A DNA stretch of 33,450 bases, taken from Myxococcales bacterium. GTDB taxonomy: Bacteria > Myxococcota > B64-G9. Below the pieces are notes generated by a model, which saw only the letters and a program-made list of their open reading frames with translations, was not told the DNA's origin and ran no database searches. The first letter of the stretch is position 1, and each line of letters starts with the position of its first letter. Positions 1,687 to 17,757 of the stretch are shown here, piece by piece. Location: positions 1-33,450 of the forward strand of contig JALVPF010000341.1 in assembly GCA_027031935.1 (NCBI GenBank), in the 5' to 3' direction. Made by a program: the position numbers and the translations under genes.

Positions 1687-3487
1687 TCATTCGGAAGGCT
1701 GCTGAGATGGTCTTGTCTTGTGGATTCGCCTGCCTGGCGATGCCCAGCATGTATCTCGCCAGCCCTGGTAGCTTTAGGTGCTGGGCTGCAACTGCCTGAA
1801 AATATGCGTGCCATGCGAGCACATTTGCTGTCCTGGCATCCTTGGATGCGTTACATGTCAGCTTGATGTTCTTGAATATTCTTTTTTGTAAAGAAAGCAT
1901 TTCTTCATCTGTATGGTTTTGCAAGGCTTTTATTTGCCAGAGCAGACCAAAAGGCCTGATTGGCATCAAGGACTCGTCTGCTGGAAAGTGTGGACCCAAA
2001 TCCATGGCCAGTGGGACCGCTTCGGCAAACTTCAGAACACCTGCCGCAGTCAAATTTGAATCCGGGGGCAGGTGCTTGACTATATCAGGTCGTATGGATG
2101 ATAGTCGGGAACGCAATGCTGAATTGTCCAGGTCACGTAAAAACAGGATTGTCGCATCTGGACGAATGTTTCTTACTTTCGTAAGGTAATCCAACATGAA
2201 AACCAGGTTGAAATCAGCACAGAGCACAACCGAAGCCTTTGGCAACTCGTGGAGAGTGCGTGTGACCATGGTTTCGGAGCAGTTGCATTGGGAACGATTT
2301 TCTTTTGGTGCAAGGAACAATAGCGTATGTAGGCACATGAGCACAGACAGGATACTGACTATCAGATAGGCGTGTTTGCGCAAGGGATGTAAGACTCCAG
2401 CTATCATTATCCATGAGATGTTCGAGAATAAACCAACTGATACGAAGGCCAGCAGGGCGTAGCCGCTTACGTCCGGGTTGTCCAGTCTAAACGAGCGCTC
2501 GATGAGCAGGGGCACGAAGGCTGCTGCCATGGTGATGAGTAAACCCGCAGCCAAATGCATGCTGCTGCGAAGAAGTGCGTATATACCCAGCATTCCAAGG
2601 ATCAGCAGGGGCCACCCTGTTTCTGTGATGAGTAGGAGAAAAACATTGTAGATGTTGGAAGCAAAGCTTGTTGGCCCCCCGGAGAAGGTGTGACTGAAGG
2701 TGGCTCCTGAGATGAAATTCAACCAGCCAGAAAAAGAAGTTGGATCTCCCCATCGTACATCTGCCCATCCATGTACCATGAATCCGATAAAGGCAAGGGG
2801 TGTGGCGCCTAAAAGAAAAAGAAGAAAAGCTCTGCCGATCTTGCCTGGAGCAAGGAGCTTTGATCTGAGTTTGGATCTCAGAGAGGCGAAAAGTAAAACA
2901 GGCAGGGGAACGAGAGCCACCAGTGGATGGACCGCTATTCCCATGCCGGTATAAAGGCTTGCTTGGTATACTGCTTTTTTTATTTCCGAGAAAGACTCCG
3001 TGGTGAAAATTCGCATGGCCTGAAAAAGCACGAGTAAGGCCAGCAATAGCCCAAGGGTGTAGACCTCGGTTCTTACGGCCTGTGATAGAAGTCCGGGTGA
3101 CAGTCCAATTACCACAGCCATCGCAGGGGCTGCGATCATCTCGCCACACCTGTTTGCCCCGGGTGCGAGATTCCTCCAGAGATGCTGATTGATACGGGAG
3201 ATTACATAGATGCTGGCTGCAGCCCAGATGGCTGAGAAAAACATCATTCCCTGACCAGGGTGACCAAAGGGTAAAAGAGATATGACGTGACCAAGCAGTA
3301 CTGCCAGAGGTGAACCAGGGGGATGAAAGGTTCCCAATCGCACAGAAGCTGTTATGAGCTCAGGACTATCCAGCCAGTCAGGGAAAGGGAAGGAGTAGAT
3401 GACATACACAAAGGCACAAGCAGCAGCGGCAATTATGGAAATTATTTTTTCACAAGATGCCTTGCTGTTTGGTCCACAAGATTCCAT
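1676..3487 (-). CDS. DUF2723 (TMEM260-like) polytopic membrane protein, 603 aa
   Basis: A protein with many hydrophobic segments over roughly residues 15-395 and a soluble C-terminal part. Near the N-terminus it has the DSPELITASVRLGTFHPPGSPL signature typical of DUF2723, a family related to GT-C glycosyltransferases whose animal member TMEM260 is an O-mannosyltransferase; the Asp-Glu pair and the HPPG turn are the recognisable parts. The last 80 residues are alpha-helical and TPR-like. It starts 12 bases after pilI ends, so it is probably the last gene of the pilA-GHI run, with no good Shine-Dalgarno of its own. A role in lipid-linked sugar transfer to a surface protein fits the neighbourhood but is inference. 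Confidence 0.7.
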   Translation of the reverse strand: MESCGPNSKASCEKIISIIAAAACAFVYVIYSFPFPDWLDSPELITASVRLGTFHPPGSPLAVLLGHVISLLPFGHPGQGMMFFSAIWAAASIYVISRINQHLWRNLAPGANRCGEMIAAPAMAVVIGLSPGLLSQAVRTEVYTLGLLLALLVLFQAMRIFTTESFSEIKKAVYQASLYTGMGIAVHPLVALVPLPVLLFASLRSKLRSKLLAPGKIGRAFLLFLLGATPLAFIGFMVHGWADVRWGDPTSFSGWLNFISGATFSHTFSGGPTSFASNIYNVFLLLITETGWPLLILGMLGIYALLRSSMHLAAGLLITMAAAFVPLLIERSFRLDNPDVSGYALLAFVSVGLFSNISWIMIAGVLHPLRKHAYLIVSILSVLMCLHTLLFLAPKENRSQCNCSETMVTRTLHELPKASVVLCADFNLVFMLDYLTKVRNIRPDATILFLRDLDNSALRSRLSSIRPDIVKHLPPDSNLTAAGVLKFAEAVPLAMDLGPHFPADESLMPIRPFGLLWQIKALQNHTDEEMLSLQKRIFKNIKLTCNASKDARTANVLAWHAYFQAVAAQHLKLPGLARYMLGIARQANPQDKTISAAFRMINR

Positions 3488-3499
3488 GAGCTTGATTGC

Positions 3500-4267
3500 T
3501 TATGTGATATCACGCCTGGAGAAGATCAGGGCAGACAGGAGCAAGAGCACAGCGGAATATCCAAACGCGTATGCTGCGCTGATTCCCACGTGGTCCCAGC
3601 CTATGGGCAGCTTGTGTACCACTCTCGTGGCCTTGTTGAACTCGGAAAGATCCGGAAGCCCCCACACCAGGACCTTGAGCAGAGCATAGGCTGCAGCGTT
3701 TTGAGTCTTGTCCATGAGTTTTTCCAGGACCGGCAGGGAGCGGCCCACTACAAAAATCGAGAAGGTGAACACACCGCTGAGATACGGTGATGAAAATGAA
3801 GAGAAGAAAACGGCCATGGCCGCAACCAGGAGTATTTCCAAAAGAGCCAGTACCAGAGACTGGAACAACAACTGCGACGGTGCGATGCCCTCAAATGCCA
3901 GCAGAGCGATCAGTGCTGCGGACAAAACTCCCAACTCCACCAGCAGTGTCGCCCCAAGTCCCAGGTATTTTCCAAAAATGTACTGCCATCTGTAAATGGG
4001 TTTTGTGAGAATCACATAGAGGTTTTTGCGGCGAAGCTCCTTTTGAACCTGGCTCACTCCTATGAGGATTGAAAGTAAAACCCCGAATGCGGATACGCAG
4101 AACAGGCCCCAATCCAGGATCACTCTGGTGCGCTGATCCAGTGCAAGCTCTGCAAGCAAGAGGGCCGATATGATAAAGCCCACGGCAAGCAGAACTATGG
4201 CCAGCATGGTCTTGTTCCTGATGGATTCGCGAAAGGCTGTTGCTGCTACTGAAAGGATGGCTCTCAT
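3500..4267 (-). CDS. pilI: PilI-like ABC-2 type permease
   Basis: A 255-residue membrane protein with about six hydrophobic segments, starting MRAILSVAATAFRESIRNK, the usual opening of ABC-2 permeases whose first helix follows a cytoplasmic amphipathic stretch. It contains the loop QKELRRKNLYVILTKPIYRW, which is common in this family. It begins four bases after the ATPase gene ends, with GGAG inside the preceding gene as ribosome site, so the two form one transporter. In Myxococcus xanthus the pilGHI genes next to pilA code for an ABC-transporter-like system needed for pilus assembly; the same order here supports the name. Substrate is unknown. Confidence 0.75.
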   Translation of the reverse strand: MRAILSVAATAFRESIRNKTMLAIVLLAVGFIISALLLAELALDQRTRVILDWGLFCVSAFGVLLSILIGVSQVQKELRRKNLYVILTKPIYRWQYIFGKYLGLGATLLVELGVLSAALIALLAFEGIAPSQLLFQSLVLALLEILLVAAMAVFFSSFSSPYLSGVFTFSIFVVGRSLPVLEKLMDKTQNAAAYALLKVLVWGLPDLSEFNKATRVVHKLPIGWDHVGISAAYAFGYSAVLLLLSALIFSRRDIT

Positions 4268-4271
4268 GGAC

Positions 4272-5258
4272 TCATGGCTCCTGTGATTTTTTTTCTTCGC
4301 CCTGGCCGGTATGGTTTTGTGCCGTATCGTTTTTTATCAGGCGGATAAAGACATCTTCCAGCGAGGCGTGTCTACGCTCCACACCCATGAGCTTGTAGCC
4401 TTTTTGGGCCAACAAGGGCAACACCTGTTCGGGAGCTTGATCGTGTGCGAGAGCCAGGAGGCTGTCGGGTCCGGCAGGCCGAGTCGACGACACCGCAGCC
4501 TTTATTTCCTTGTCCTTCAGTGCTTCGTCGCCCAGCACCAGTATTTCCCAGGTGCCGGCATCTGCGGCCAAAAACTCCCTGGTGGTGCCCTGGGCTATGA
4601 GCTTGCCCTTGTTTAGAAAAGCAACCCTGTGACACACGGCCTGCGCTTCTGCTAAAACGTGAGATGAGAAAAATACGGTTTTTCCGGCCTCGCTGAGTTC
4701 TCCGATGAGGTCCTTGACCCACCTGCGACCCAGGGGGTCCAGTCCACCCATGGGCTCATCCAGGATATAGAGATCCGGATCGGGCAGCATGGCCTGGGCG
4801 ATGCCGCATCGTTGTAACATGCCCTTTGAAAACTTCCTCATGGGTCTTTTTTCCGACGGGTCGAGTCCAACCCGTTCGAGTAGCTCAGGGACTCTGCGCT
4901 TCAATGTAGGTGTATCCATCCCAAAAAGCCTGCCACAGTGGAAAAGGAACTCGGATGGCCTGAGGTAATCGTAGAAGTCGGGCAATTCCGGCAGGTAGGC
5001 TATTTTTTTCCTGATGTGCACATGGGGCAGGGTTTGGCCGAAAATCTTCGCATGTCCGGAGTCCGGTTTGAGCAGACCCACGAGAATCTTGATGGTGGTG
5101 GTCTTTCCTGCTCCGTTGGGGCCCAGGAAACCGAAAACCTCCCCTCTGGGAACGTCGAGATCGAGTCCCATCAAGGCTTCAGAAACCTTGAGCCTTACTC
5201 CCACCCGGAACTTTTTGCTAAGGCCTCTAGCCTGTATTGCCAGGTCTTGCTGGTTCAT
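4272..5258 (-). CDS. pilH: PilH-like ABC transporter ATPase
   Basis: A 328-residue ATP-binding subunit. Visible motifs are Walker A GPNGAGKTT, a signature FSKGMLQR in place of LSGGQ, Walker B LYILDEPMGGLDP and the switch histidine in FSSHVLAEA; the C-terminal 90 residues match the usual extra domain of ABC-2 exporters. I chose the start at 5258 (MNQQDLAIQARG...) because its ATG overlaps the TGA of the upstream pilG-like gene as ATGA and GTGAGGA stands before it; an in-frame start at 5315 would lie deep in that gene. Named from the pilA-G-H-I order shared with Myxococcus xanthus, where PilH is an ABC ATPase required for pilus biogenesis. ATPase identity is firm, pilus role is by context. Confidence 0.8.
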   Translation of the reverse strand: MNQQDLAIQARGLSKKFRVGVRLKVSEALMGLDLDVPRGEVFGFLGPNGAGKTTTIKILVGLLKPDSGHAKIFGQTLPHVHIRKKIAYLPELPDFYDYLRPSEFLFHCGRLFGMDTPTLKRRVPELLERVGLDPSEKRPMRKFSKGMLQRCGIAQAMLPDPDLYILDEPMGGLDPLGRRWVKDLIGELSEAGKTVFFSSHVLAEAQAVCHRVAFLNKGKLIAQGTTREFLAADAGTWEILVLGDEALKDKEIKAAVSSTRPAGPDSLLALAHDQAPEQVLPLLAQKGYKLMGVERRHASLEDVFIRLIKNDTAQNHTGQGEEKKSQEP

Positions 5259-6049
5259 GGTGTCCTCACCAGTAAAAAGAGATCGAAGGGGATAAATGCC
5301 CACTTGGACTGCCATCTTTGCATCAACTCGGTCCTCAGGTCCAAAAGCGCCTGGCGCTCCCGGGGGCTCATGATATACACCAGGCGCTCCTTCAGGGTCC
5401 TGGAGATGTTGGGGTCGTCGGTTCCCATGGCTATGGACTCGAGAACTCGCTTGGCCATGTCTTTTTTCTTTATCTTTGAAAAGAGATCCACGAGCTTCTT
5501 GTTCAGCCAGTCGGGGGCATGGGGTTTTGATGCTGCCATGGAAAAATAGGCGATGGCGTCTTCTGCATCACCAGCTTCGTAATAGAGGTTGAAGCCTATC
5601 CTCATGGGAAAACGGTAGTCGGAAGGAAAACGTGCCATTCCCTTTTCCAGTATTCGGTTGGCTCTGTCCACAAGTTCCTTTGGTACAAAGTCCACCTCTC
5701 GCTTGTAATAAGTTGTGGCAAGGGCTCCCCACAGGTATGCTTTCTTGAAATCAGGATCCACCTTTAGAAGTATGTCGATAAACGACGAAAGCCATGGGGT
5801 TTGCTCGTCTGTGAGCATGTGACTTCCGTAGTAGAGGTTGGCCCGGATGAACATCAGGTCTGCGGCCAGAGTGTGGTAGCCCAGGTCCATTTGCCGGATC
5901 ACTTCTCCTGGAGGAACCAAAAGGACTTCCTGCATGGAAGCCCGGTTTTCCGCAGCGCCTTGGTGCAGTAAAAATCTGGACCAGGCCAGTACCGCCAGGA
6001 AAATTCCCATGGCCAGAACAAATGCGATATGGTGCTTTTTTAAGTTCAT
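5255..6049 (-). CDS. pilG: PilG-like membrane-anchored helical-repeat protein, 264 aa
   Basis: One N-terminal membrane anchor (residues about 8-24) is followed by a mostly helical soluble part. It contains TPR-like helix pairs, for example around PDFKKAYLWGALATTYY and PSDYRFPMRIGFNLYYEAGDAEDAIAYF. It sits between pilA and the ABC ATPase gene and is coupled to the latter by an ATGA overlap, the position held by pilG in Myxococcus xanthus. Its role there is accessory to pilus assembly together with PilH and PilI. The sequence alone shows only an anchored repeat protein; the name rests on gene order. The first gene of this unit after the hairpin at 6074-6103. Confidence 0.65.
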   Translation of the reverse strand: MNLKKHHIAFVLAMGIFLAVLAWSRFLLHQGAAENRASMQEVLLVPPGEVIRQMDLGYHTLAADLMFIRANLYYGSHMLTDEQTPWLSSFIDILLKVDPDFKKAYLWGALATTYYKREVDFVPKELVDRANRILEKGMARFPSDYRFPMRIGFNLYYEAGDAEDAIAYFSMAASKPHAPDWLNKKLVDLFSKIKKKDMAKRVLESIAMGTDDPNISRTLKERLVYIMSPRERQALLDLRTELMQRWQSKWAFIPFDLFLLVRTP

Positions 6050-6146: not shown

Positions 6147-6779
6147 CTACCAGTCATCCAGGGTGTCATCGTGCCACACGTGACCTGCGATGAAGGATGA
6201 TGTCTCCAGAGAGAATCCTGCACCCTTCTGCCAGTGACAGAGTGCATCATCATCATCGATGTCTGTCCATGCGTCACACTGGAAGGCGTTCGGTGAAGCA
6301 ATGGCCGCGTTGATGGTAACGCCACCATTGGCTGTATTGTACTGGTAGCATGCATAGGTGGCCTCTGTGATGATGAAGTTCAGGTCTCTGAGGATCAAGG
6401 AGTCACCACCGGCTGCAGCATTGTATACGGCCTCGGGAATGTAGCCCGACTCACCTGAGAGAGATCCAGCTGCGGGAGCCATGAGACCACCGCCACTACC
6501 TGCGACGTCTGGGCAAATGGCCATTCCCATGGGCATTGGAAGCTGGGAGGAAATAGTGGTTCCATTTTGAAGTCCATGGGGTTTATCAAAGTAGTCCACC
6601 GCTCCCTTGTAGCATTTGTCCAGGTTTTCGTTTACTTCTGTAGCCTTCGACTTCCTGATGTAGTCGATGAAGGCCGGGATGGCCACTGCAGCCAGGATAC
6701 CGATAATGGCCACGACGATCATCAGCTCGATGAGGGTAAAACCTCTTCTTCCCAGTTTTCTGCGCAATTTGATAATCAT
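6147..6779 (-). CDS. pilA: Major type IV pilin PilA (prepilin, 210 aa)
   Basis: The basic leader [13 protein letters not shown] is cut between G13 and F14 to give [24 protein letters not shown], the canonical type IVa pilin N-terminus with Glu at +5. The C-terminal domain is long and contains cysteines and a [12 protein letters not shown] loop, another acidic cluster resembling a metal-binding loop. AGGAGG lies seven bases before the ATG. It has its own sigma-54-type promoter (6908-6923) and a hairpin after it, and the pilG-H-I genes follow, as in Myxococcus. Of the three pilins in the window it has the most canonical leader and the best promoter, so it is the likely main subunit. Probable targets of the glycan genes upstream include this protein, but no experiment is implied. 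Confidence 0.92.
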
Positions 6780-7011: not shown

Positions 7012-7743
7012 TCATTGACGAATATGGGCAATGGTCAGCATGTAGAGACCCAGCCTGTTGATGCCAGGCATATGTTCAAGGAACTCCTCTGCATTGCTGG
7101 AAAACTGCCTGAATGTCCATAGGGGTGGAGGTACAAGGCCCAAAAAGCTCATGTGTATCTCGGCAAATCCTGCCTTCCGAAAAAGCCTTCGATTTTTCCA
7201 CGGGGTGTGTCGTAAAACCCCGGATTCTATTTGCCAGCTTAAGGCAGGATGCAGGGTGATAAATGCAAGCCAAGCTGCTTGCATGGGATTAGGGTCCATG
7301 AAGACTGCCTTGCCGCCCGGCCGAAGGGCCCTGTGTACACGCTCGATCACTGCCTGAGGGTCTTGAAGGTGATGCAGTATGCCTCTTCCCATAATCAGGT
7401 CATAGTCCCTGACACTGTCCAGGTCTTCTGCCGCTCCATGTTCCGCAGTGAAAGATTCCTGTAGATTGAGGGTGCTTATCTTTTGCTGCAACAGCTCCAG
7501 GGTGCTGGCTGAAAGCTCCAGCCCGGTCACATGACATCCGGCCTGCAACAGCGGTATGGTTGTCCTGCCGGCCCCGCAGCCCATGTCCAAAACCTTCATC
7601 CCGCCCTTTACCCCGGCCAACTCCAACAAGCGCCTGGTCATGGCATCGTGAAAGGGTGTGTGCTGACCGTACATCCGGGAGTATTCTCTGGACTTTGAGT
7701 CGAAATGCGCCTGCTGGCGTTGCAACCAGGAGGATTTTTTCAT
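7012..7743 (-). CDS. Class I SAM-dependent methyltransferase, 243 aa
   Basis: The SAM-binding motif I is VLDMGCGAGRTTIPLL near residue 50, followed by an acidic residue at the end of strand 2 (TGLELS) and the motif GRGILHHLQDPQAVIERVHRALRPGGKAVFMDPNP, typical of Methyltransf_11/UbiE-like enzymes. The start at 7743 (MKKSSWLQRQQ) is chosen because its ATG overlaps the TGA of the upstream methyltransferase as ATGA; a longer reading frame upstream would overlap that gene by over 130 bases. The acceptor is unknown. Position between glycosyltransferase genes and pilA suggests modification of a glycan or lipid-linked sugar. Translationally coupled to its neighbour. Confidence 0.8.
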   Translation of the reverse strand: MKKSSWLQRQQAHFDSKSREYSRMYGQHTPFHDAMTRRLLELAGVKGGMKVLDMGCGAGRTTIPLLQAGCHVTGLELSASTLELLQQKISTLNLQESFTAEHGAAEDLDSVRDYDLIMGRGILHHLQDPQAVIERVHRALRPGGKAVFMDPNPMQAAWLAFITLHPALSWQIESGVLRHTPWKNRRLFRKAGFAEIHMSFLGLVPPPLWTFRQFSSNAEEFLEHMPGINRLGLYMLTIAHIRQ

Positions 7744-8450
7744 GGAGGATACTCCTGGCCCTTTAGTCCGGCAACCAGGACCTGGTATTCTGCAAAGGGA
7801 AGATCCCTGTCGAAGATTTTCAATATGGGAACCATGAAGGCCGGGGTGTTGTTTTGCGAGATCATGCCCGTGGTCCAATGGGCAATCACGCGGGCACCGG
7901 TCTGTTGTACGAGGGAGTTCAAAAAGCCCCTGGTGAATTTGAGCCCACCTCTTTCTGCCTGAACGAGAAGGGAAAAACCAAGCATCAGGGGGTTTGAGAT
8001 ATTCGGCTCTATGAGTACCATGCCTTGTCTTGCCACCCTGGCCATCTCTGCCAAGGCCTTGTCAGGCCTGTCCGTGTGGTGGAGCAGGTTGGCTTCGAAG
8101 CATATGTCAAAGGAGTCATCATCAAAGGGAAGGTTGGTTGCGTCACCAGGAATGATCTCGACACCATGCAGTTCTGCTGCCTTGCTTAGCATATGAACCG
8201 AGGAATCACATCCTGTCACTTTCCCGGCCAACTCGGAAAGGAGCAATGTGAAATTTCCCGGGCCGCATCCCACATCCAGCACCGATTTTCCTCTGAAGTC
8301 CATGACCTTCTGTATCAACTCCAGCTTGGGCTCTGCGTATGCCCTGAAAACCGGGTCGTGTGGAGTTCGATATTTTGCCGAGACCCAGTGTGCTTCCTGA
8401 TCCCTGTCCAGACCCATGGTCTTTGCCAGCGCCTTGAGGATTTTGTGCAT
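7740..8450 (-). CDS. Class I SAM-dependent methyltransferase, 236 aa
   Basis: Motif I VLDVGCGPGNFTLLLSE, then GDATNLPFDDDSFDICFEANLLHHTDRPDKALAEMARVARQG, the pattern of Methyltransf_11 enzymes. The C-terminal 80 residues carry a hydrophobic stretch (NPLMLGFSLLVQ) that may contact a membrane substrate. AAGGA stands seven bases before the ATG. It lies 24 bases downstream of the GT2 gene and is coupled by an ATGA overlap to the next methyltransferase, to which it is similar in size and fold but not a close copy. Specific acceptor cannot be told from sequence; a sugar or polyprenyl-linked intermediate is a reasonable guess. Confidence 0.8.
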   Translation of the reverse strand: MHKILKALAKTMGLDRDQEAHWVSAKYRTPHDPVFRAYAEPKLELIQKVMDFRGKSVLDVGCGPGNFTLLLSELAGKVTGCDSSVHMLSKAAELHGVEIIPGDATNLPFDDDSFDICFEANLLHHTDRPDKALAEMARVARQGMVLIEPNISNPLMLGFSLLVQAERGGLKFTRGFLNSLVQQTGARVIAHWTTGMISQNNTPAFMVPILKIFDRDLPFAEYQVLVAGLKGQEYPP

Positions 8451-8474: not shown

Positions 8475-9707
8475 TCATGGCCCGTGCTGGGCTTTTTTTT
8501 CTTCCAGTCTCAGGCGAACCCCCTCCACCACCCTGACCAGGCTGCCCCACAATACGAGCGATATTCCCAGGAGGAACAACATGGAGCCGGTGAGTGTGTA
8601 CGACCAGTGGAGATAGACTTTTCCCGTGGTGAAATAGGTGTAGAGTCCTTCGTAGTTTAGCGCAGGAGCCGCAATCATGAGAATGATCCCCGCAAACCAC
8701 AGGTGTCTTATCACGAATGGTCTCAACAGGAGTTTGGCCAGGATGCTGTTTCTGTAGGGAGGAAGCCTGTGTATTGCAGCCATTATAATATTGGAGACCA
8801 CGCCAAAAAAGATGATGTTTATTCCCGCTACTGCAAGAACGATGACCGTCGTCAGGCGGTATATTTCCCAGTCTTCCACCCGCTGAACCCTGATGTAATA
8901 GGCAAGGGGACTTATGCCCAGAACTATGGCTACCACCAGACAAATCGCGCCCAGCAGCCCAAACATTTTCATGGGGTTGTACCTGTGTGCTGTACGCAGG
9001 ATGGTCCATAAGAATCTCAAGCCGTCTGTTATGGGATTGAGCTTGGAGCCACCAACCCGCTCGTCATAGGGCATGGGTATTTCACGTATGTCCAGCATTC
9101 TATGCAAGGCGCTGGTGCTCATGGCAGGAGTATAATTGAGTCCGTCGGGAAGCTTGTCCAGTTCGCTCAGCGCACTCTTTTTTAGTATGCGCATTCCCGA
9201 GGCAGTGTCAGTGATTTTTTTACCCGTAATCCACGAAAGCAGGTGGGCAAAAAACAGGTTTCCGGTTTTCCTCACCATGGGCATGCCTGTCTTTTGTCCG
9301 CTCAGCCGGGAGCCCAGGATAATATCCGCATCAGTTTCAATCATCTCACGAACGAGATCCACCAGAAACGACGGTGGGTAAGTGCCGTCTGCGTCCAGAA
9401 ACACCAGCCAGTCGCCGTGGGCCCTGGAAAAACCGGTTTTTATGGCATGACCGTAACCACCATTTTTTGCCTGCCGCACGACGCTTACGTCTTTTACTTC
9501 TTCGGCTATCTCCGCCGTACGGTCGGTGGATCCGTCATCTACGACTATTATCTCTACATGGTCAATGATTTCGAATTCTTGCTTGACATGGTCTGCCGCT
9601 TCTCGGAGCCCGTCTAGAACCTTCTTGATTCCCTTTTCTTCATTCAGGGCAGGCAGTACCACCGATACAATTTTTTTTCCACCTTCTGTATTATTATCCT
9701 TTTCCAT
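8475..9707 (-). CDS. GT2 glycosyltransferase with C-terminal membrane domain, 410 aa
   Basis: A GT-A fold glycosyltransferase of the dolichol-phosphate-mannose-synthase type: SVVLPALNEEKGI at the N-terminus, EIIVVDDGSTDRTAEIAEE, the metal-binding DADGTYPP, and a downstream SRLSGQKTGMP segment followed by TDTASGMRI. Four hydrophobic segments occupy about residues 245-390. Enzymes of this layout move a sugar from a nucleotide to polyprenyl phosphate or extend a lipid-linked glycan at the inner face of the membrane. It follows the oligosaccharyltransferase gene by 75 bases on the same strand, so it may supply that enzyme's lipid-linked donor. The link is inference. Confidence 0.82.
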   Translation of the reverse strand: MEKDNNTEGGKKIVSVVLPALNEEKGIKKVLDGLREAADHVKQEFEIIDHVEIIVVDDGSTDRTAEIAEEVKDVSVVRQAKNGGYGHAIKTGFSRAHGDWLVFLDADGTYPPSFLVDLVREMIETDADIILGSRLSGQKTGMPMVRKTGNLFFAHLLSWITGKKITDTASGMRILKKSALSELDKLPDGLNYTPAMSTSALHRMLDIREIPMPYDERVGGSKLNPITDGLRFLWTILRTAHRYNPMKMFGLLGAICLVVAIVLGISPLAYYIRVQRVEDWEIYRLTTVIVLAVAGINIIFFGVVSNIIMAAIHRLPPYRNSILAKLLLRPFVIRHLWFAGIILMIAAPALNYEGLYTYFTTGKVYLHWSYTLTGSMLFLLGISLVLWGSLVRVVEGVRLRLEEKKAQHGP

Positions 9708-9782: not shown

Positions 9783-12050
9783 TCACTGAATCCTGGTGAC
9801 ATCGATGACTTTCTGCGTGATTACGTCTTGTTCATCAACTTCCACATGCACAACACGGTCGTCCGCTTTTATCCTGTATGGCCCTTGTGCCTTGCAGGGA
9901 AAAGGGCCATCATTGGTCGGGTAGGGCACGAGGAAGACAAACCTTCCGTCCTGGTCTGCCGTGGTTTTTCTCGAATAAGTAAAAGTTCTCGAGGTGTTTG
10001 TCTTTACCAAAAGCCGTAATCGCACTTGACTACCAGGTGTCGCTGCCCCTTCCAGCCTGGCACCCGGTACGACCTGGAATGCTTTCAACGTTGCATTGGA
10101 TGCATCCTTGACGCCAAGAACGGGCGTGGATGCAGAGGATTCCAGCACCAGGCGAAAATGTCCCAGCCCCTTGTGTATACTTCCGTCGGTCCATCGGGCA
10201 GAGCTGTCACCCAACCATAGCCTTGTGGATACACTGTTGAGGTACCTGGCAAGAGGTTCGGTTCTTTTTATAAGGCGTCCTTTCGGGTCAATGCCTGTTG
10301 CAGTCTCGACCACCGGTTCAGATATTTGGGCAATCAGGGCCATGGAACGAGCCTGCCTGATTTGGTTCGAGACTACCATATAGGCAAGGTGCATATTTTT
10401 CATGCCGGAAAAAACTGTATCCTCATCTTCTGAGAGCATCAGGGAAAACGATTTGCTGTTGCCTTCGAGAGCACGACTGGTTCCGAAGGAACTCACCGAT
10501 ACCGGGATCTTCGTCAATTCCAGCAGGGCGTGAGCCTCCATCCAGCCGGTCAGCATTCCCCACTTGGGATGTCCTGCGGAGTCCAAGGGGGAAGGCAGGA
10601 CATGGCGAAGGTCTTGACCGAATTTCCACAGCTGCCGCTGGTATTTTACCGGATCATGGGTATAGAGAAAGACGATTCCTTTCGGTAAGGGCCACAAGGC
10701 CACAACAAGGGACAAACCCAGGGAAACTCCAAGGACCCAGCGTCTGAGGCGTGTTGTGTTTGCAAGTGCTTGCCTGACGCGCCGCAGGCTTGCCACCAGT
10801 GCCCATGCTGTTATCAGGAACAAGGCAGGTGCTGCGAATTCTCCGAAACGCTCTTGCGCCAGCATGAGCCCCAGGCCCATGGTTGACCAAATGAGCACAA
10901 GAATTTTTCCAGGTGCCAGGTCATGGCCTGATTTCATGCGTATGGCAAAAACAGCTATGAAAAGGGGCCAGAAGTAGGCCAGGTAGGAATATAGAATCAC
11001 CGGTCTCATTAAGCTGAAGGTGTGTTTTGGAAAAAGCAGGGAACTGCTTTCCATGGCCATGGAATAGGTCGAGCTGCCTCCTGATGCTACTTCAATGGCG
11101 GTTTTAATGGGCGAAGCCAGCTGGGGGACAAGCAAAAGAACAAGTATGCCAAAAGCGAGCAGAAAAGCACACGTAAGTACAAGCCACTTTTTCCCTTTCA
11201 GTGACGCTAGCCCCAGAATGGCGAAGCCTGCATATGCGAGCAGATGCAGTATGGACGGTCGATAAAGGGAGAAATTGTCCCCTGGATTGCCTGCCCAAAA
11301 GACTACGAGGGCAGACAATACGACCGCAGTGAGTATGCCCCACCTGATGGGGGTAGATGCTTTGTGGTCATCACCCTTGAGGGCATGGAGCATGAGCATC
11401 AAGGCCACCGGGGTAAAATAAATGGGAGGGGTTACGATCCATGACCCCAGGGCCACTGCGGCAAGAGCCGCGCCAAGAAGGCTCCATAGCCTGGAATGCT
11501 CCCTGTTCTGTAGCGCATTGAGAAAAGATATACAAATGCCAAGGCACATGGGAGCTACCAGGGCATGATGATCGATCCTGCCAATTTTCGAGTAATGAAT
11601 GAATCCAATGGACAAAGCAGTAAAAGCTGCTGCCAGCAGGCCGGTGGGCCTGTCGAATATCTTTTTTCCAAGTACCCAGACCAACCAAACGCCGAGCGCG
11701 CCCAAGGCGGGCATGAGCACAGCTCCCCATGCAGCCAGGAAACTTGTGGGTGCACCCAATAGTCCAGGTAATGCTATCATGAGGTCGAAGCCCGGTGGCC
11801 AGGGAATGGAGCCACCCTTGGGGAAGGAGATGTATGGATCCACCAATGGTGCAAGGGGAAAAGATTGGACCAGATGTGTTGCTCTCCACAGGTGGTAGTA
11901 TGGATCCACCCCTGGCATTATGACTGAGCCCTCGCTGAAAACGAATCTCCAGGGAAGACAGCGGGCCACAAAGCCAAGCAGCGCCATGGCGATGGCGGCC
12001 ATCTCCCAGAGCCATGCTTTTTTTTCTTTGCTTGTAGCACTCATGTCCAC
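9783..12050 (-). CDS. AglB/STT3-like oligosaccharyltransferase, 755 aa
   Basis: About a dozen membrane segments occupy residues 12-450, with a soluble C-terminal part. The first motif GVDPYYHLW (D49) matches the catalytic metal-site Asp of STT3/AglB, and GRIDHH (D160) the second. SMAMES in the long loop may be the SxxE-type element. The region aligned with the acceptor-binding WWDYGH motif reads GWMEAH (W503), so the first Trp and the Asp are absent. The last 100 residues (VPGARLEGAATPGSQV ... FTYSRKTTADQDGRFVF ... PYPT ... GPYRI) resemble the beta-domain of archaeal AglB. Start at 12050 is GTG; an ATG at 12044 is equally possible, and neither has a good ribosome site. The gene heads the minus-strand glycan operon and is divergent from the epimerase. 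Confidence 0.75.
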   Translation of the reverse strand: MDMSATSKEKKAWLWEMAAIAMALLGFVARCLPWRFVFSEGSVIMPGVDPYYHLWRATHLVQSFPLAPLVDPYISFPKGGSIPWPPGFDLMIALPGLLGAPTSFLAAWGAVLMPALGALGVWLVWVLGKKIFDRPTGLLAAAFTALSIGFIHYSKIGRIDHHALVAPMCLGICISFLNALQNREHSRLWSLLGAALAAVALGSWIVTPPIYFTPVALMLMLHALKGDDHKASTPIRWGILTAVVLSALVVFWAGNPGDNFSLYRPSILHLLAYAGFAILGLASLKGKKWLVLTCAFLLAFGILVLLLVPQLASPIKTAIEVASGGSSTYSMAMESSSLLFPKHTFSLMRPVILYSYLAYFWPLFIAVFAIRMKSGHDLAPGKILVLIWSTMGLGLMLAQERFGEFAAPALFLITAWALVASLRRVRQALANTTRLRRWVLGVSLGLSLVVALWPLPKGIVFLYTHDPVKYQRQLWKFGQDLRHVLPSPLDSAGHPKWGMLTGWMEAHALLELTKIPVSVSSFGTSRALEGNSKSFSLMLSEDEDTVFSGMKNMHLAYMVVSNQIRQARSMALIAQISEPVVETATGIDPKGRLIKRTEPLARYLNSVSTRLWLGDSSARWTDGSIHKGLGHFRLVLESSASTPVLGVKDASNATLKAFQVVPGARLEGAATPGSQVRLRLLVKTNTSRTFTYSRKTTADQDGRFVFLVPYPTNDGPFPCKAQGPYRIKADDRVVHVEVDEQDVITQKVIDVTRIQ

Positions 12051-12147: not shown

Positions 12148-13158
12148 ATGAACACTGATTCCAAAGATCACATGGGCCGTATCCTCATAACCGGCGGTGC
12201 AGGTTTCATAGGCTTGTCTTTGGCCTGGCATTTACGGAAATCGGCGGACTTGATTTTGCTCGATTCTCTGCGCCACAGGGTGGATTTCCAAAACCAATGG
12301 GCCAACTCATGCGGAGCGAAGCTGGTGGTGGGAGACGTGCGGGATGCAGATTTGGTCCTGCGCTGCCTGGATGGCTGCAACTGCGTGGTCCACCTGGCTT
12401 CTCTGGCAGGGGTAGACCGGGTCAGAACCAATCCAGGAGAGACTTCCAGGACCATACTGGATGGCACGAAAGCCCTGCTGGACGCCTGTTCGAAGAGTCC
12501 GAATATAAAAAGGATAGTTGTGGCATCCACCAGTGAGGTCTACGGGATAAATGCCGACAGAGATGATGAATATGAGTTCCATGGGCCTTTGCCTGATGAT
12601 GACCCGCGCTGGATTTACGCTGCGTCCAAGCTGGTGGCGGAAAGGATGGTTCTGAATTTTGGTGCGGAGCATGGGCTGGATGCTTTTATCGTACGGCCTT
12701 TCAATGTATATGGCCCGGGTCAGCTTGGCAGGGGGGCGGTGGAGACATTTGTCAAAAGGGCCCTGGCCGCAGAACCACTGGAAGTATTCAATGGAGGCGA
12801 ACAGGTGCGCGCCTGGTGTTTTATCACCGATTTGCTAAAGGGCCTCGAAGCGATACTGCTGGCCCGTGATTTGGCTTCGAACATATACAACATGGGCAAT
12901 CCTTATGCTGCCCTTACCACCAGGCAGTTGGCTTCAAAGATTGTGCACTTGGCTCAATCGAAGAGCACCATCAGGTCACGGCAGGAAACTTTAGCTGAAG
13001 TGCAGTTCAGGGTACCCAACATAAGCAGAGCCGAGACGGAACTCGGCTTTGGACCTGCTGTGGACCTGGAGCAGGGACTGATATGGACCATAGCCTGGTA
13101 CAAGCATTTGCTCGATGGTAGTCCTGTGGCACCTTGGGAGGGTGATTTTGGACTGTGA
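12148..13158 (+). CDS. NAD-dependent sugar-nucleotide epimerase/dehydratase (extended SDR), 336 aa
   Basis: The Rossmann motif GGAGFIG sits at residues 16-22; VVHLASLAGVDRV, STSEVYG and the catalytic YAASK follow in the order seen in UDP-glucose 4-epimerases, dTDP-glucose dehydratases and UDP-glucuronate decarboxylases. The RPFNVYGPGQ motif and the WCFITDLLKGL segment fit the same family. It would make an activated sugar for the nearby glycosyltransferases. It is the first gene of the plus-strand operon and overlaps the start of the following GT2 gene. The exact substrate cannot be assigned. The start has only a weak CCGGAA ribosome site; an ATG at 12172 (MGRILITGG) is an alternative. Confidence 0.85.
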   Translation: MNTDSKDHMGRILITGGAGFIGLSLAWHLRKSADLILLDSLRHRVDFQNQWANSCGAKLVVGDVRDADLVLRCLDGCNCVVHLASLAGVDRVRTNPGETSRTILDGTKALLDACSKSPNIKRIVVASTSEVYGINADRDDEYEFHGPLPDDDPRWIYAASKLVAERMVLNFGAEHGLDAFIVRPFNVYGPGQLGRGAVETFVKRALAAEPLEVFNGGEQVRAWCFITDLLKGLEAILLARDLASNIYNMGNPYAALTTRQLASKIVHLAQSKSTIRSRQETLAEVQFRVPNISRAETELGFGPAVDLEQGLIWTIAWYKHLLDGSPVAPWEGDFGL

Positions 13159-13837
13159 ATTGACCATATTGATCCCGGTTTATAACGAGGCCGAAAATCT
13201 GAAAAAAAACCTTGCCATAATCAAGAACGCGGCACAGTCGCTGACCGGGAACTGGGAGATCCTTGCGGTTGATGACGGGTCTTCGGATTCCACGGCAGAG
13301 ATAGTCAAGCAGGCATCGAGGCAGGATGTCCGCATTCGTCTCGTGTCCCATAAAAAAAACATGGGGCCTGGTGCCGGACTGTATTCTGGCTTGTTCTGGT
13401 CCAGGGGAAAATGGGTGCTGTTTGTCCCGGCCGACTTGGCTTGCAAGCCCAAGCACCTTCTGAGAATGTGGAAAGCCAGAAAGGGCGCGGACCTGGTGGT
13501 GGGCCTTCGCTCCGACAGGAGAGATTACAGCCTTGCAAGAAAGCTCATGAGCGTCACTTATATCGCCTTGATCCGTTTTTTGAGTGGATCGAGCGTGAGA
13601 CAATTCAACTACATACAGATGTGGCGTAGGTCTTTCTTTGCCGGACTGGACCTGCAGTCTAAGGGGGTGTTCATTACGGCAGAGGTGATACTGAGGGCAC
13701 AGAGAAAAAACGCCAGGGTCGTGCAAGTCGGCATGGCTTACCTTCCTCGTACCAGCGGACGTGGAGCAGGTGCCAGGCCTGCTGTGGTTGCCAGATGCCT
13801 CTCGGACCTGGTCGAATTTTTTGCCTTTGGACGGTAA
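13148..13837 (+). CDS. GT2 glycosyltransferase, short form, 229 aa
   Basis: A soluble GT-A glycosyltransferase: ELTILIPVYNEAENL, EILAVDDGSSDSTAEIV, then VLFVPADLA where the DxD metal motif normally stands (here P-A-D), so the first Asp is missing. No membrane segments are obvious. The start is uncertain: TTG at 13148 has GGGAGGG (13136-13142) at good spacing, GTG at 13142 is too close, and ATG at 13115 would overlap the epimerase by 44 bases without a ribosome site. It is translationally overlapped with the epimerase and lies 60 bases before pilD. Probably adds one sugar in the same glycan pathway. Confidence 0.75.
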   Translation: MDCELTILIPVYNEAENLKKNLAIIKNAAQSLTGNWEILAVDDGSSDSTAEIVKQASRQDVRIRLVSHKKNMGPGAGLYSGLFWSRGKWVLFVPADLACKPKHLLRMWKARKGADLVVGLRSDRRDYSLARKLMSVTYIALIRFLSGSSVRQFNYIQMWRRSFFAGLDLQSKGVFITAEVILRAQRKNARVVQVGMAYLPRTSGRGAGARPAVVARCLSDLVEFFAFGR

Positions 13838-13897: not shown

Positions 13898-14863
13898 TTG
13901 GACGGTTTTGCTGATTTGCAGGTTTGGTTGTGGCAACACTGGATATATACATCTTGCTTCGTCTTTTTGTTTGGTGTGGCGGTGGGAAGCTTCTTGAACG
14001 TTGTGATCTACAGGCTTCCGGATCCGGACCTTTCCATTGTCAAGCCAAGATCCCGCTGCCCGCGATGTGACGCTTCCATCGCCTGGTACGACAACATTCC
14101 CATCCTGAGCTTTGTCTTTTTACGCGGAAAGTGTCGCAAATGCGGTGGCAAAATCTCCTTTCGTTATCCCCTGGTGGAGTTGCTCACGGGAGCTTTTGCC
14201 CTTGGCCTTTTCTTGCAATTTGGTCCAACACTGGCTGTGCCTCTGTATTTCGTTTTTGGAGCTTCTCTCATCGCATGCTCGTTTATCGATCTGGATTACC
14301 TGATCATTCCCAACGAGATCAGCATCCCCGGTATTCTCCTCGGTATTGCAGTGTCTTTTCTGGGGCCGGAAGGATACTGGAAACAGTCCCTGATGGGAGC
14401 GCTCATTGGCGGCGGTGGCCTCTTTCTCATAACATTGATATGGGCTCTTTTGCGTGGCAAGTGGGCCATGGGACTGGGTGATGTAAAACTCCTGGGCATG
14501 ATAGGCGCATGGTTGGGCTGGAAATCGTTGTTGTTCGTGGTCCTCTTTTCTTCCCTGCAGGGCATTGCAGCAGCGGTGGTGATGTTGGTCTTGGGTGTGG
14601 AACTTCAACCTCCACTGGAGGAAGAGGACGAGGAGACGGAACTGGAACGTATTCGCCAGGAGCGACGAAAGAAGTTTGGCCTGGACGAAGCGGAAGACAA
14701 GTCAGAAAAAGATTTGGATGTGGCTGCGGACGAACAGGATGAGCAACAGGAGCCCGTTGGATTTTTTGGTGCTGCAATTCCTTTCGGGCCGTTTTTGGCA
14801 CTGGCTGCCATCGAATATCTTTTTCTCGGCCAGTGGTTCTTCGACCTTCTCGCAGGAAGGTGA
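13898..14863 (+). CDS. pilD: Prepilin leader peptidase / N-methyltransferase PilD
   Basis: An inner-membrane aspartyl protease that cuts prepilins after Gly and methylates the new N-terminus. The cytoplasmic zinc loop has CPRC (54, 57) and CRKC (79, 82). The catalytic aspartates are in FIDLDYLIIP (131/133) and MGLGDVK (195). About eight membrane segments are seen. Between the last two lies a charged insert (residues 241-286, EEEDEETELERIRQERRKKF and more) that standard PilD proteins lack. The start is TTG at 13898 with GGGAGGAG a few bases upstream. It would process the three pilins in this window. In Myxococcus pilD also follows pilI, though here glycan genes intervene and the strand differs. 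Confidence 0.93.
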   Translation: MDGFADLQVWLWQHWIYTSCFVFLFGVAVGSFLNVVIYRLPDPDLSIVKPRSRCPRCDASIAWYDNIPILSFVFLRGKCRKCGGKISFRYPLVELLTGAFALGLFLQFGPTLAVPLYFVFGASLIACSFIDLDYLIIPNEISIPGILLGIAVSFLGPEGYWKQSLMGALIGGGGLFLITLIWALLRGKWAMGLGDVKLLGMIGAWLGWKSLLFVVLFSSLQGIAAAVVMLVLGVELQPPLEEEDEETELERIRQERRKKFGLDEAEDKSEKDLDVAADEQDEQQEPVGFFGAAIPFGPFLALAAIEYLFLGQWFFDLLAGR

Positions 14864-14896: not shown

Positions 14897-16510
14897 TTGT
14901 TACGGGCAGGCATGGGTCTGAAACCCTTGATCGCCGTGTATCTCATCATCCTGCTCGCGCTGTGTGCAGGATTGACCGAGCTGGCAGCCGTGCGACTATC
15001 GCGTCATGCCCTGGTGGCAGAGCGCGTGTCCGATGCCAGGATTTTGTTGAGACAGTGGGGGGAGAAACTGGACGAGATGTGTGAGGATCTCTCATCCGAC
15101 CGTCTGTGCAAGGGCTTTGACTCCTGGACAAGGAAACGGCAATCTCTGATGCCATCACTGTTGAGTTTGTCAATCATCGATGGAAACGGAAAATGTGTCG
15201 CAAGCTCTGATCCTGCCATTTCGGCCGGTGCCATGTGGGATGGATTGATACCAGCTGAAAAAAGCGGCCCAAGCGGCGATGGGTGGAGGGTGGTCGACCA
15301 TGGTCATGGACGAAAACTTGCCGTGGAGCTTTCGGTAGCCGATGGCGAATGGTTTCTCCGCGCGTGGTTCTCTCTGGGGCAGACAGACAGGCTGGTGGCC
15401 TTTATCACCACTAGTGCTTCTGTTTACGCTGTGGTCGTGGCAGTCGCCTTGGCTCTCATAGGATGGCTGTTTCTGTACCGTATGGTGGTTCGACCTGTAG
15501 AGCGGCTTCTCGATGTGGCTGACAAGGTCAGCGAGCAGGGAGATCTTTCTCTTTTGATGAGCACTGACAACGGAAGTGAACTCGGTCGCCTCGGGGTAAG
15601 ATTGGGCAGGATGGCGAGAAGAATAAAGGAGGATCACTCCAAGCTGCAACATCACATTTCTCAACTCGAGGATCTCAATCGCAATCTCACCCAGGCCCAA
15701 AAAGCTTTAATCAGACAGGAAAAACTGGCATCGGTGGGTCTGCTTGCTGCCGGACTGGCCCATGAGGTGGGAAACCCCATGGCAGCCATAATGGGTTATG
15801 TGGACATGCTTCGCACCGAAGATTTTTCAGAGACAGAACGTAGTGATGTCCTCATGAGGGTCGGACGGGAGCTGGAAAGAATCGACAAGATAATACAGGA
15901 TTTGCTCGCCTTTTCCAGGCCTGGACGGGGCGAGACCCAAGCATGTAATGCCCATGACCTGATTCAACAGGTCAGAAGCCTTCTCGTGCCACAAAAAAAG
16001 TTCAAGATCATAAGCTTCGAGGCTGAGGTGCCGGATGATCTGCCCCCTGCACTCTGTGACCCGGACCTGGTTAGCCAGGTTCTGATAAACCTCTGCCTCA
16101 ATGCATTGGATGCGCTGGACAAAGATGGACACATGTGGATACGGGCCCTTAGCCTCAGGCGATGTGGCGACAGGATGCTCTGGAATGGTTCTGATTCCGT
16201 ACCGGAATTTTTCGAGCTTGGTCCGCTTCATGGGATCATGCCGCCAAACGATGGACGGGATCTTCCCGAGAATGAAACGGTGATTGTATTTTGTGTCGTG
16301 GATGATGGAGTCGGTATGAGTCAGGAAAATGCCTCGCGAATCTTTGATCCTTTTTTTACCACGAAACCTCCGGGAAAAGGAACTGGACTGGGCTTGGCAA
16401 TCTGTCATACTGCCATCGAATCCATGAATGGACAGATATGGGCCTGGAGCAAGGCAGACCTGGGAACCCAGATGGCATTTTGGATTCCTTCTGCACAGAT
16501 TGAAAAATGA
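14897..16510 (+). CDS. Membrane sensor histidine kinase, PilS/NtrB-like, 537 aa
   Basis: Two membrane segments (about residues 8-30 and 168-195) flank a periplasmic sensor of roughly 135 residues. A HAMP-like linker starts at RMVVRPVERLLDVADKV, and a coiled coil leads to the H-box GLAAGLAHEVGNPMAAIMGY with its phospho-accepting His. The ATPase part has NLCLNALDAL (N box), VDDGVGMS (G1), FDPFFTTKPPGKGTGLGLA (F/G2). An insert of about 45 residues lies between N and G1 boxes. The TTG start at 14897 is favoured by AGGAGG six bases upstream; ATG at 14912 is the alternative. No response-regulator gene of NtrC type follows directly. In Myxococcus pilS2 follows pilD, so this may be its counterpart. 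Confidence 0.88.
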   Translation: MLRAGMGLKPLIAVYLIILLALCAGLTELAAVRLSRHALVAERVSDARILLRQWGEKLDEMCEDLSSDRLCKGFDSWTRKRQSLMPSLLSLSIIDGNGKCVASSDPAISAGAMWDGLIPAEKSGPSGDGWRVVDHGHGRKLAVELSVADGEWFLRAWFSLGQTDRLVAFITTSASVYAVVVAVALALIGWLFLYRMVVRPVERLLDVADKVSEQGDLSLLMSTDNGSELGRLGVRLGRMARRIKEDHSKLQHHISQLEDLNRNLTQAQKALIRQEKLASVGLLAAGLAHEVGNPMAAIMGYVDMLRTEDFSETERSDVLMRVGRELERIDKIIQDLLAFSRPGRGETQACNAHDLIQQVRSLLVPQKKFKIISFEAEVPDDLPPALCDPDLVSQVLINLCLNALDALDKDGHMWIRALSLRRCGDRMLWNGSDSVPEFFELGPLHGIMPPNDGRDLPENETVIVFCVVDDGVGMSQENASRIFDPFFTTKPPGKGTGLGLAICHTAIESMNGQIWAWSKADLGTQMAFWIPSAQIEK

Positions 16511-17757
16511 AGAAATTCCTGAGGGAAAGAATTTTTTGCCTGTCTGTGCTTCTTGTCTTCATTCTCATGCCAAACGGGGTGTTCGCCTCTGTCTCGGAGG
16601 CTTGGCCTTTTGAACCCGACCATGTACTGCTCGTGAAGATCCAGATGAATCCTCAGCAATGGGATACCTTGCGAAAACAGACCAGGACCAACGAACAGGG
16701 TCCGTGGGGAAAGGGCTGCTTTTCCGAACCGGGGCCGACTCCCTTTACCTATTTCCCTGCTCGACTGGACATAGACGGCCAGGTTTTCGAAAATGTTGCC
16801 ATCAGAAAAAAGGGCATGTTCGGTTCTCTGGACGACAAGCGACCGTCGTTGAAGATAAATTTTTCCAAGTTCAGCAAGGGGCGGCGTTTGGCCGGATTGA
16901 AAAAACTCACCCTGAACAATTCTCTGCAGGATCCTTCAATTGTGCGGCAGTGTCTCGGGTATGAACTTTTCAGACAGGCCGGGGTAGTGGCATCCAGGTG
17001 CAGCTTTGCGCATGTGACAGTCAACGACGTGTCACTTGGTGTTTACGTCAACGTCGAATCTGTCGATAAGAGATTTATAAAGCGGCAACTGGGTGATGAG
17101 AGTCTGTGCCTGGAAGAGGGGGCAGAGTCGGATTTTCGTCCTGGCTGGGTTCGTTCCTTCGAACACAAGTTCGGACCCGAGGAAAAATGCCGACGGAGCC
17201 TGGATTCCATCGTGGATTTGTTTTTGGATTCTGATTCGGCCATAGCCGGCAGGCTGGAAAAGTACATGGATCTGGATTCCTTTTATACCTTCTGGGCCAT
17301 CGAGGCCCTTGTGGGCGATGATGATGGGTATACAAGTGCTGCGAACAATTTTTTTGTGGCAAGAGGAGCAGACGGACTCTGGCATTTCATTCCATGGGGA
17401 ATAGATGAGATCATGCAAGGACGAACACAAGCATGCGAACCTTACTGCCAGTATGCAAGGACCTATTCCATATTGACACTCAGGTTGTGGTTGATACCGA
17501 AAATGAGGCAGGCTTTTGTCTCGCGACTTTTGTGGATCATGGACAAATACTGGGACGAGGAGCAACTCGTATCCAGGGCGGAGAAAATGGAGCAGCTCAT
17601 CTGGCCTTTTCTGGACAAGGGGCAGGTGCAGGCAATGCCCGAAGCCATGGAGAATCTAGTTGATTTCGTCTGCAGCCGTCGTGAATTTCTGCATGAGGAG
17701 ATCCAGATGGGCCCCTTTACGGTCCGGCCTTTTTATGCCCGTGCTTTTTGCAAATAG
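16507..17757 (+). CDS. CotH-like secreted protein kinase-fold protein, 416 aa
   Basis: A signal peptide (residues 1-27, ending VFA) precedes a domain of the CotH family (PF08757 type), known from spore-coat proteins and from secreted proteins of many bacteria; Bacillus CotH is a protein kinase. Recognisable parts are the RKKGMFGSLDDKRPSLKINF block, VGVYV-like LGVYVNVESVDKRFI, and DDDGYTSAANNFFV...FIPWGIDEIM near the C-terminus, where the family usually has PWDxD; here the first Asp is Gly. The gene overlaps the histidine kinase stop as ATGA, so the two are translationally coupled. It acts outside the cytoplasm if secreted. Function in this operon is unknown. Confidence 0.75.
   Translation: MKKFLRERIFCLSVLLVFILMPNGVFASVSEAWPFEPDHVLLVKIQMNPQQWDTLRKQTRTNEQGPWGKGCFSEPGPTPFTYFPARLDIDGQVFENVAIRKKGMFGSLDDKRPSLKINFSKFSKGRRLAGLKKLTLNNSLQDPSIVRQCLGYELFRQAGVVASRCSFAHVTVNDVSLGVYVNVESVDKRFIKRQLGDESLCLEEGAESDFRPGWVRSFEHKFGPEEKCRRSLDSIVDLFLDSDSAIAGRLEKYMDLDSFYTFWAIEALVGDDDGYTSAANNFFVARGADGLWHFIPWGIDEIMQGRTQACEPYCQYARTYSILTLRLWLIPKMRQAFVSRLLWIMDKYWDEEQLVSRAEKMEQLIWPFLDKGQVQAMPEAMENLVDFVCSRREFLHEEIQMGPFTVRPFYARAFCK

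Follow-up and report, generated by a model that had tools for sequence, protein, structure and literature searches.

In the literature on oligosaccharyltransferases, the WWDYG motif is described as strictly conserved in the enzymes that glycosylate asparagine (N-OSTs) and as necessary for their catalysis, and it serves to recognise them. In PglB, the side chains of the WWD triplet hold the hydroxyl of the threonine or serine at position +2 (PMC7226087; PMC8479172), and the isoleucine of the MI motif contacts the methyl group of the threonine (PMC7226087). The single substitutions W457S, W458R, W458C, D459V, Y460N and G461D each yield an inactive PglB of Campylobacter jejuni, and W457R and D459N occur in inactive double mutants (PMC3527161). 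In the archaeal AglB-Long of Archaeoglobus fulgidus (AfAglB, O29867; structures 3waj, 5gmy and 7e9s), the residues of the catalytic site are D47, D161, H163 and E360 (PMC7226087). The PglB-type enzymes of Campylobacterales and Desulfovibrio retain WWDXG (PMC2952790). Archaeal aglB paralogues have been noted to vary in this motif (PMC5131992), and phylogenetic trees have led to the inference that bacteria acquired AglB from archaea (PMC4973528). Two observations on record depart from the N-X-S/T rule: Asn-2 of the Halobacterium S-layer protein is glycosylated even after the replacement of Ser-4, which is unexplained, and a Rha-Asn-Glu-Gly-Ser peptide of Methanosaeta documents N-glycosylation in the absence of a +2 hydroxyl (PMC2952790). 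Searches of a collection of open-access papers found no report of a loss of WWD in bacterial AglB-like proteins.

The window analysed here is a stretch of 33,450 nucleotides from a Myxococcales bacterium. At positions 9783-12050 of its reverse strand it contains a gene with a GTG start encoding, without internal stop, a protein of 755 residues, hereafter OST, which is an AglB-like oligosaccharyltransferase whose WWD motif is replaced. The reading frame is intact and single in the source genome (G000, a 5.5 Mb draft in 613 contigs), where searches with the protein, TIGR04154 and PF02516 returned no further STT3 match, canonical oligosaccharyltransferases included. Pfam recognises the STT3 domain PF02516 (33 bits for a cut-off of 24.5) and, over residues 663-749 (9804-10064, reverse strand), the C-terminal beta domain AglB_L1, PF18079 (79.2 bits for a cut-off of 23.6, E 2e-22), so that the likeness of this domain to archaeal AglB claimed in the original prediction lies well above the curated threshold. 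The best NCBIfam match is TIGR04154, the archaeosortase-associated archaeal STT3 (E 1.8e-70), yet the OST stays below its curated cut-off (238.3 bits versus 450) and is devoid of WWD.

An AlphaFold2 model built from eight sequences, in which model residue n corresponds to protein residue n+1, reached a pLDDT of 77.5 and a pTM of 0.77, the confidence being low in the catalytic loops 328-345 and 155-159. With VIA-align the model superposes on AfAglB 3waj with a Z-score of 30.7 (rmsd 3.2 over 647 residues, 21% identity) and on 7e9s with a Z-score of 29.7 (Foldseek E 2.3e-30), on PglB of Campylobacter lari (5ogl) with a Z-score of 22.9 and 12% identity, and on Pmt4 with a Z-score of about 21. The OST thus shares with archaeal AglB-Long the GT-C membrane domain, the catalytic Asp/DHH/Glu/Arg set and the C-terminal domain with its AglB_L1 beta domain, and differs from it by GWMEA in place of WWDYG, by the absence of a DK motif where one would be expected, by an identity of only about 20% and by its bacterial host. 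With C. lari PglB it shares the oligosaccharyltransferase fold and perhaps, in its MI-like M-x-x-I, the MI motif, but PglB has the WWDYG that the OST does not have, and the alignment of the PglB periplasmic domain stops at residue 660 and leaves the AglB_L1 part uncovered. By homology and fold, the OST is a member of the STT3/AglB/PglB superfamily, of the AglB long type and not of the PglB type of Campylobacterales and Desulfovibrio. It does not have the WWDXG with which the canonical N-OSTs bind the +2 Ser/Thr; it is therefore named here a WWD-less AglB-like transferase and is not filed as an N-OST.

The catalytic residues are all in place. The motifs GVDPYYH (residues 47-53; 11892-11912, reverse strand) and GRIDHH (residues 157-162; 11565-11582, reverse strand), whose retention had been noticed from the sequence at the outset, carry the catalytic D49, equivalent to AfAglB D47, and the metal ligands D160 and H162, equivalent to AfAglB D161 and H163. 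Among the aligned bacterial homologues, the first aspartate is present in 48 of 48, the second in 48 of 48 and the histidine in 45 of 47. In SMAMESS (residues 330-336; 11043-11063, reverse strand), E334 of the external loop EL5 corresponds to AfAglB E360 and PglB E319 and is found in all 46 sequences aligned at this point. QERFGE (residues 399-404; 10839-10856, reverse strand) aligns with AfAglB QNRFAY and brings R401, the counterpart of PglB R375, conserved in 48 of 49 sequences and proposed here as the arginine that would bind the phosphate of the lipid-linked oligosaccharide. Taken together, the catalytic residues of the sampled bacterial AglB-like proteins are 95-100% conserved.

The situation is different at the acceptor site, where the OST reads GWMEAH (residues 502-507; 10530-10547, reverse strand) at the place of WWDYGH. 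Three alignments agree on this register: the profile of eight relatives places t-g-W-k-d-a-h on S-W-W-D-Y-G-H of AfAglB 3waj/5gmy, hhalign of the same profile with the canonical AglB of Halocatena salina places MLTGWMEAH on VVSWWDYGH, and a MAFFT multiple alignment including the Halocatena protein as control again sets GWMEAH on WWDYGH. In the AlphaFold2 model, GWMEAH lies at the start of a helix that follows a strand, in agreement with this register. The first tryptophan is accordingly replaced by glycine, the second is kept, the aspartate becomes methionine, the tyrosine glutamate and the glycine alanine, and the histidine is kept. The substitution first noticed by eye therefore stands, and an alignment displaced by a segment is ruled out by the agreement of three different methods; a canonical WWD elsewhere in the protein is likewise ruled out, neither WW nor WD occurring as a dipeptide anywhere in its 755 residues. 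Downstream of this position, a helix of the model carries M570-A-L-I573 (10332-10343, reverse strand). In the eight-member clade alignment M570 is invariant (8/8) and the +3 position hydrophobic. This segment resembles the MI motif of PglB, and a hydrophobic contact to the +2 residue may have survived in it; M570-x-x-I573 is seen by alignment, and the third residue of the motif is indistinct in the OST. A DK motif is not evident at the place where it would be expected.

The original prediction had named a lone mutation as one case that would undo it, and the survey of homologues disposes of this case. The eight members of the query clade, which come from six genomes and form one group in the tree with a support of 100/100, read GWMEAH, SWNETH, SWNETH, GWRDAH, GWKDSN, KWDDGH, GWNDAH and GWDASH; all eight have W503 and seven an acid at position 505, and most have also lost the Asp and Gly of WWDYG. 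The wider sample drew some 50 bacterial AglB-like proteins from Myxococcota and from roughly eight further bacterial families; one family contributes about a dozen of them as close orthologues, a few are fragments, and unrelated GT-C proteins among the fetched regions were left out. In the alignment of these homologues the first tryptophan occurs in 0 of 50, the second in 33 of 50 and the aspartate in 20 of 50, the forms typical of the other lineages being PWDLGH, FWDLGH, QYDMGH, DWNLGH and QWGIGH. The absence of the first tryptophan is a lineage-wide feature of the sampled bacterial AglB-like group, a statement from which the PglB-type enzymes of Campylobacterales and Desulfovibrio are set apart. 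A survey of 24 genomes in another phylum gave a match in 3 of them. The backbone of the tree between the bacterial groups is without resolution and gives no count of the WWD losses. It is hardly conceivable that the altered motif reflects a sequencing error, an isolated mutation or gene decay: the draft state of the genome would allow it, but a similar change is found in the seven close relatives and in all of the approximately 50 homologues, and both the reading frame and the catalytic residues are intact. The conservation of W503, of the acidic residue at 505 and of M570 (8/8) within a fully supported clade argues that the site has been remodelled under constraint and is not decaying.

Several relatives carry observations of their own. 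In G005 (L016) two OST paralogues, both with SWNETH, lie in tandem, and in G007 (L015/L128) a pair with GWRDAH and GWKDSN occupies opposite strands; such pairs suggest a division of acceptor or donor roles. In another bacterial family, L091 (G332:C118) holds an AglB-like gene degraded by several in-frame stops, next to which a DPM-like GT2 gene is intact. In haloarchaea, a branch of plasmid-borne STT3 paralogues (L050, 3934-6306; L161, L162, L163 and L164, from Haloplanus, Salinigranum, Salinibaculum, Haladaptatus and Natrinema) is also devoid of WWD, with the forms SIWGKN, SDWGQN, SDWGRN, SAWWRN and SPWSDN and intact catalytic residues. Their neighbours are genes for S-layer or surface glycoproteins or for PGF-CTERM proteins in three cases and glycan genes in two, and these paralogues are candidates for the S-layer glycosylation without a sequon that has been reported in Halobacterium. 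The plasmid matches to the OST are haloarchaeal only, and no relative was found in phages.

Substitution at each of the WWDYG positions inactivates Campylobacter PglB, the OST departs from this motif at four of the five positions, and two of its relatives bear the same tryptophan-to-serine change as W457S, so that the selection of the acceptor must differ in the OST. That the whole clade, and with it every bacterial AglB-like protein sampled, retains the catalytic residues without the first tryptophan makes a changed acceptor rule likely, and the OST is more easily read as an enzyme with another mode of acceptor recognition than as a dead one.

The genes around the OST suggest, by inference from synteny, a small pathway for a carrier-linked glycan that would feed the enzyme, with pilus proteins as its likely customers. 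Codirectional with it are an AglJ-like or dolichyl-phosphate-hexose-transferase-like GT2 of 410 residues (8475-9707; TIGR04182, E 6e-46, below the cut-off), the SAM methyltransferases MT2 (7740-8450) and MT1 (7012-7878), the type IV pilin gene pilA (6147-6779), whose match to typeIV_PilA_Myxo suggests a host in Myxococcota, a PilGHI-like set (3500-6049) made of a TPR protein (5255-6049), an ABC ATPase (4272-5315) and an ABC-2 permease (3500-4267), and a TMEM260-like GT-C (1676-3487), all on the reverse strand. Divergent from it, on the forward strand, are an NAD-dependent sugar epimerase/dehydratase (12148-13158), a second GT2 (13115-13837) and the prepilin peptidase PilD (13898-14863), followed on the same side by a histidine kinase. 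A gene for a CotH-type protein kinase (16507-17757, forward strand) lies between this histidine kinase of the pil locus and a response-regulator/DUF4388/TPR protein, and two further pilin-like ORFs at 438-1686 of the forward strand, with pilin N-terminal matches at 510-641 and 1099-1284, are probably minor pilins. The arrangement resembles the AglJ/AglP/AglB pathway of Haloferax, of which AglP has been described (PMC2952790) and in which AglB likewise accompanies an AglJ-type GT2 and SAM methyltransferases; here the host is bacterial, the setting is a pil locus and the OST is without canonical WWD. In two relatives a hexapeptide-repeat acyltransferase gene stands between the epimerase and the second GT2 (L016, 15561-16226; L018, 6373-7020) and it is missing in the window, so that the glycan probably differs among species.

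Both parts of this neighbourhood recur. The GT2, MT2, MT1 and OST genes are found together again in G005, G020 and G004, and GT2 with MT2 in G023, the AglJ-like GT2 copies in the OST regions of these four genomes being 61-68% identical. Genes of the pilus lie at the OST locus in the source genome and in G005; PilGHI-like genes adjoin the OST in G023; in family f13, G052 and G054 have the OST surrounded by pilA and by ABC, PilD, kinase and regulator genes, and in G064 it adjoins genes of these last four kinds. In all, at least six genomes, drawn from three families, have the OST next to pil genes. This recurrence argues against the reading in which the OST would act on another surface protein, a lipid or a polymer and the TMEM260-like GT-C would modify the pilin, which we regard as improbable, as does the 600-residue protein that stands between the OST and the ABC genes in the relative L019 without a Pfam TMEM260 match. 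That reading draws its support from the match of the GT-C to PF11028 (4e-23), from a 40% identical copy in the pil locus of G005 and from the position of the OST away from pilA in G007 and in the genomes of family f8 that were examined. The TMEM260-like GT-C is a possible second pilus glycosyltransferase.

The pilin that the original prediction proposed as the target was further examined for its sequons. PilA of the window has one N-G-T, at residue 72. Among the aligned pilins of the family, those of the OST-bearing source genome and G007 have N-G-T at this site, as do one broken copy in the OST-bearing G005 and a pilin of the OST-less G006; the other forms are D-G-T in one pilin of G004 and, in G005, T-G-T for the intact pilA of the pil locus and D-G-S for a further pilin. 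Pilins entirely free of N-X-S/T are the two of G004, the intact copies of G005 and the one that adjoins the OST in G052. Sequon and OST do not co-occur across the family, and the N-X-S/T of PilA thereby fails as a proof of the target; either the OST of those genomes has a target other than the pilin, or it follows a rule other than N-X-S/T. What stands of the proposal is the link to the pilus by synteny, repeated in several genomes.

These data bear directly on the possibility that the OST still glycosylates asparagine in N-X-S/T, the +2 Ser/Thr being held by the indole of W503, by E505 and by the MI-like M570/I573. The conservation of these positions in the clade (W503 and M570 in 8/8, an acidic 505 in 7/8), the service of the MI-motif Ile of PglB to the Thr methyl (PMC7226087) and the N-G-T at the same site in PilA of the source genome and of G007 speak for it; the sensitivity of PglB to substitution at each WWDYG position (PMC3527161), the sequon-free pilins found in G004, in G052 and among the intact copies of G005, and the N-G-T site of the OST-less G006 speak against it, and we hold it to be rather unlikely.

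A different acceptor rule, either O-linkage or another sequon, had been anticipated in the original prediction. The altered rule is supported in outline, and O-linkage is without specific support. In an O-linked transferase built on the STT3 fold, a serine or threonine would be the nucleophile and the WWD pocket would have been lost for want of a +2 residue to read. The loss of WWD beside an intact metal site and the O-mannosylation performed by the related GT-C fold of Pmt4 (Z about 21) would fit, as would the fact that known pilin glycosylation systems are often O-linked. The pilin O-oligosaccharyltransferases PilO/TfpO/PglL, with which the OST would share a pilus-linked glycan transfer that for the OST is proposed only, are Wzy/O-antigen-ligase-type and not STT3-type enzymes. 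The overall match of the OST to the N-OSTs is far stronger (Z 30 versus 21), the amide-activating EL5 glutamate is kept in 46/46 sequences and the literature searched on oligosaccharyltransferases yielded no O-linked STT3 enzyme, which makes O-linkage quite improbable. E334 is also a metal ligand, and its conservation is thus no proof of an amide acceptor.

We consider it an evenly balanced proposition that the OST is a transferase of lipid-linked glycans, probably for pilus proteins, which does not read a +2 Ser/Thr through WWD. In this model, a membrane-embedded GT-C enzyme would take a short glycan off its polyprenyl-phosphate carrier and attach it to proteins of the periplasm or the surface, of which the type IV pilus proteins would be the most likely recipients. 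The adjoining AglJ-like GT2 would probably start the carrier-bound glycan, and the neighbouring methyltransferases, the epimerase and the second GT2 would probably decorate it. As the conservation of the residues suggests, catalysis would be AglB-like: D49, D160/H162 and E334 would bind both the metal and the nucleophile of the acceptor, and R401 the phosphate of the carrier. The acceptor would be chosen without the hydrogen-bond network between WWD and Ser/Thr, in a pocket rebuilt around W503, H507, an acid shifted by one place (E505) and a small residue, which may face M570 and I573. The favoured consequence is that the acceptor would still be an asparagine, without a strict Ser/Thr at +2, and this N-linked, relaxed rule is preferred to O-linkage and to the alternative N-X-S/T pocket. 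The activity of the OST, its donor, its acceptor residue and the pilin as its target are all points that we infer. The N-G-T present in PilA of the source genome and of G007, the distance of the OST from pilA in G007 and the f8 genomes examined, and the remaining M-x-x-I, through which a +2 pocket may persist, count against the favoured reading.

A broader proposal, possible although we do not hold it to be probable, is that the bacterial AglB-like proteins would be a widespread class of active oligosaccharyltransferases without the N-X-S/T rule and with their own acceptor code, either asparagine without a +2 hydroxyl or another residue, tied in Myxococcota to the pili; the haloarchaeal WWD-less branch could then explain the Halobacterium S-layer case. 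Such proteins provide a candidate enzyme class for the N-glycosylation outside N-X-S/T that has been reported and is unexplained, and possibly new acceptor specificities for glycoengineering. An STT3-type bacterial lineage whose catalytic residues are intact and which has no WWD means either that sequon reading has a second solution or that enzymes of this fold do not all obey the sequon rule, and in Myxococcota it points to an unrecognised glycosylation of the pilus.
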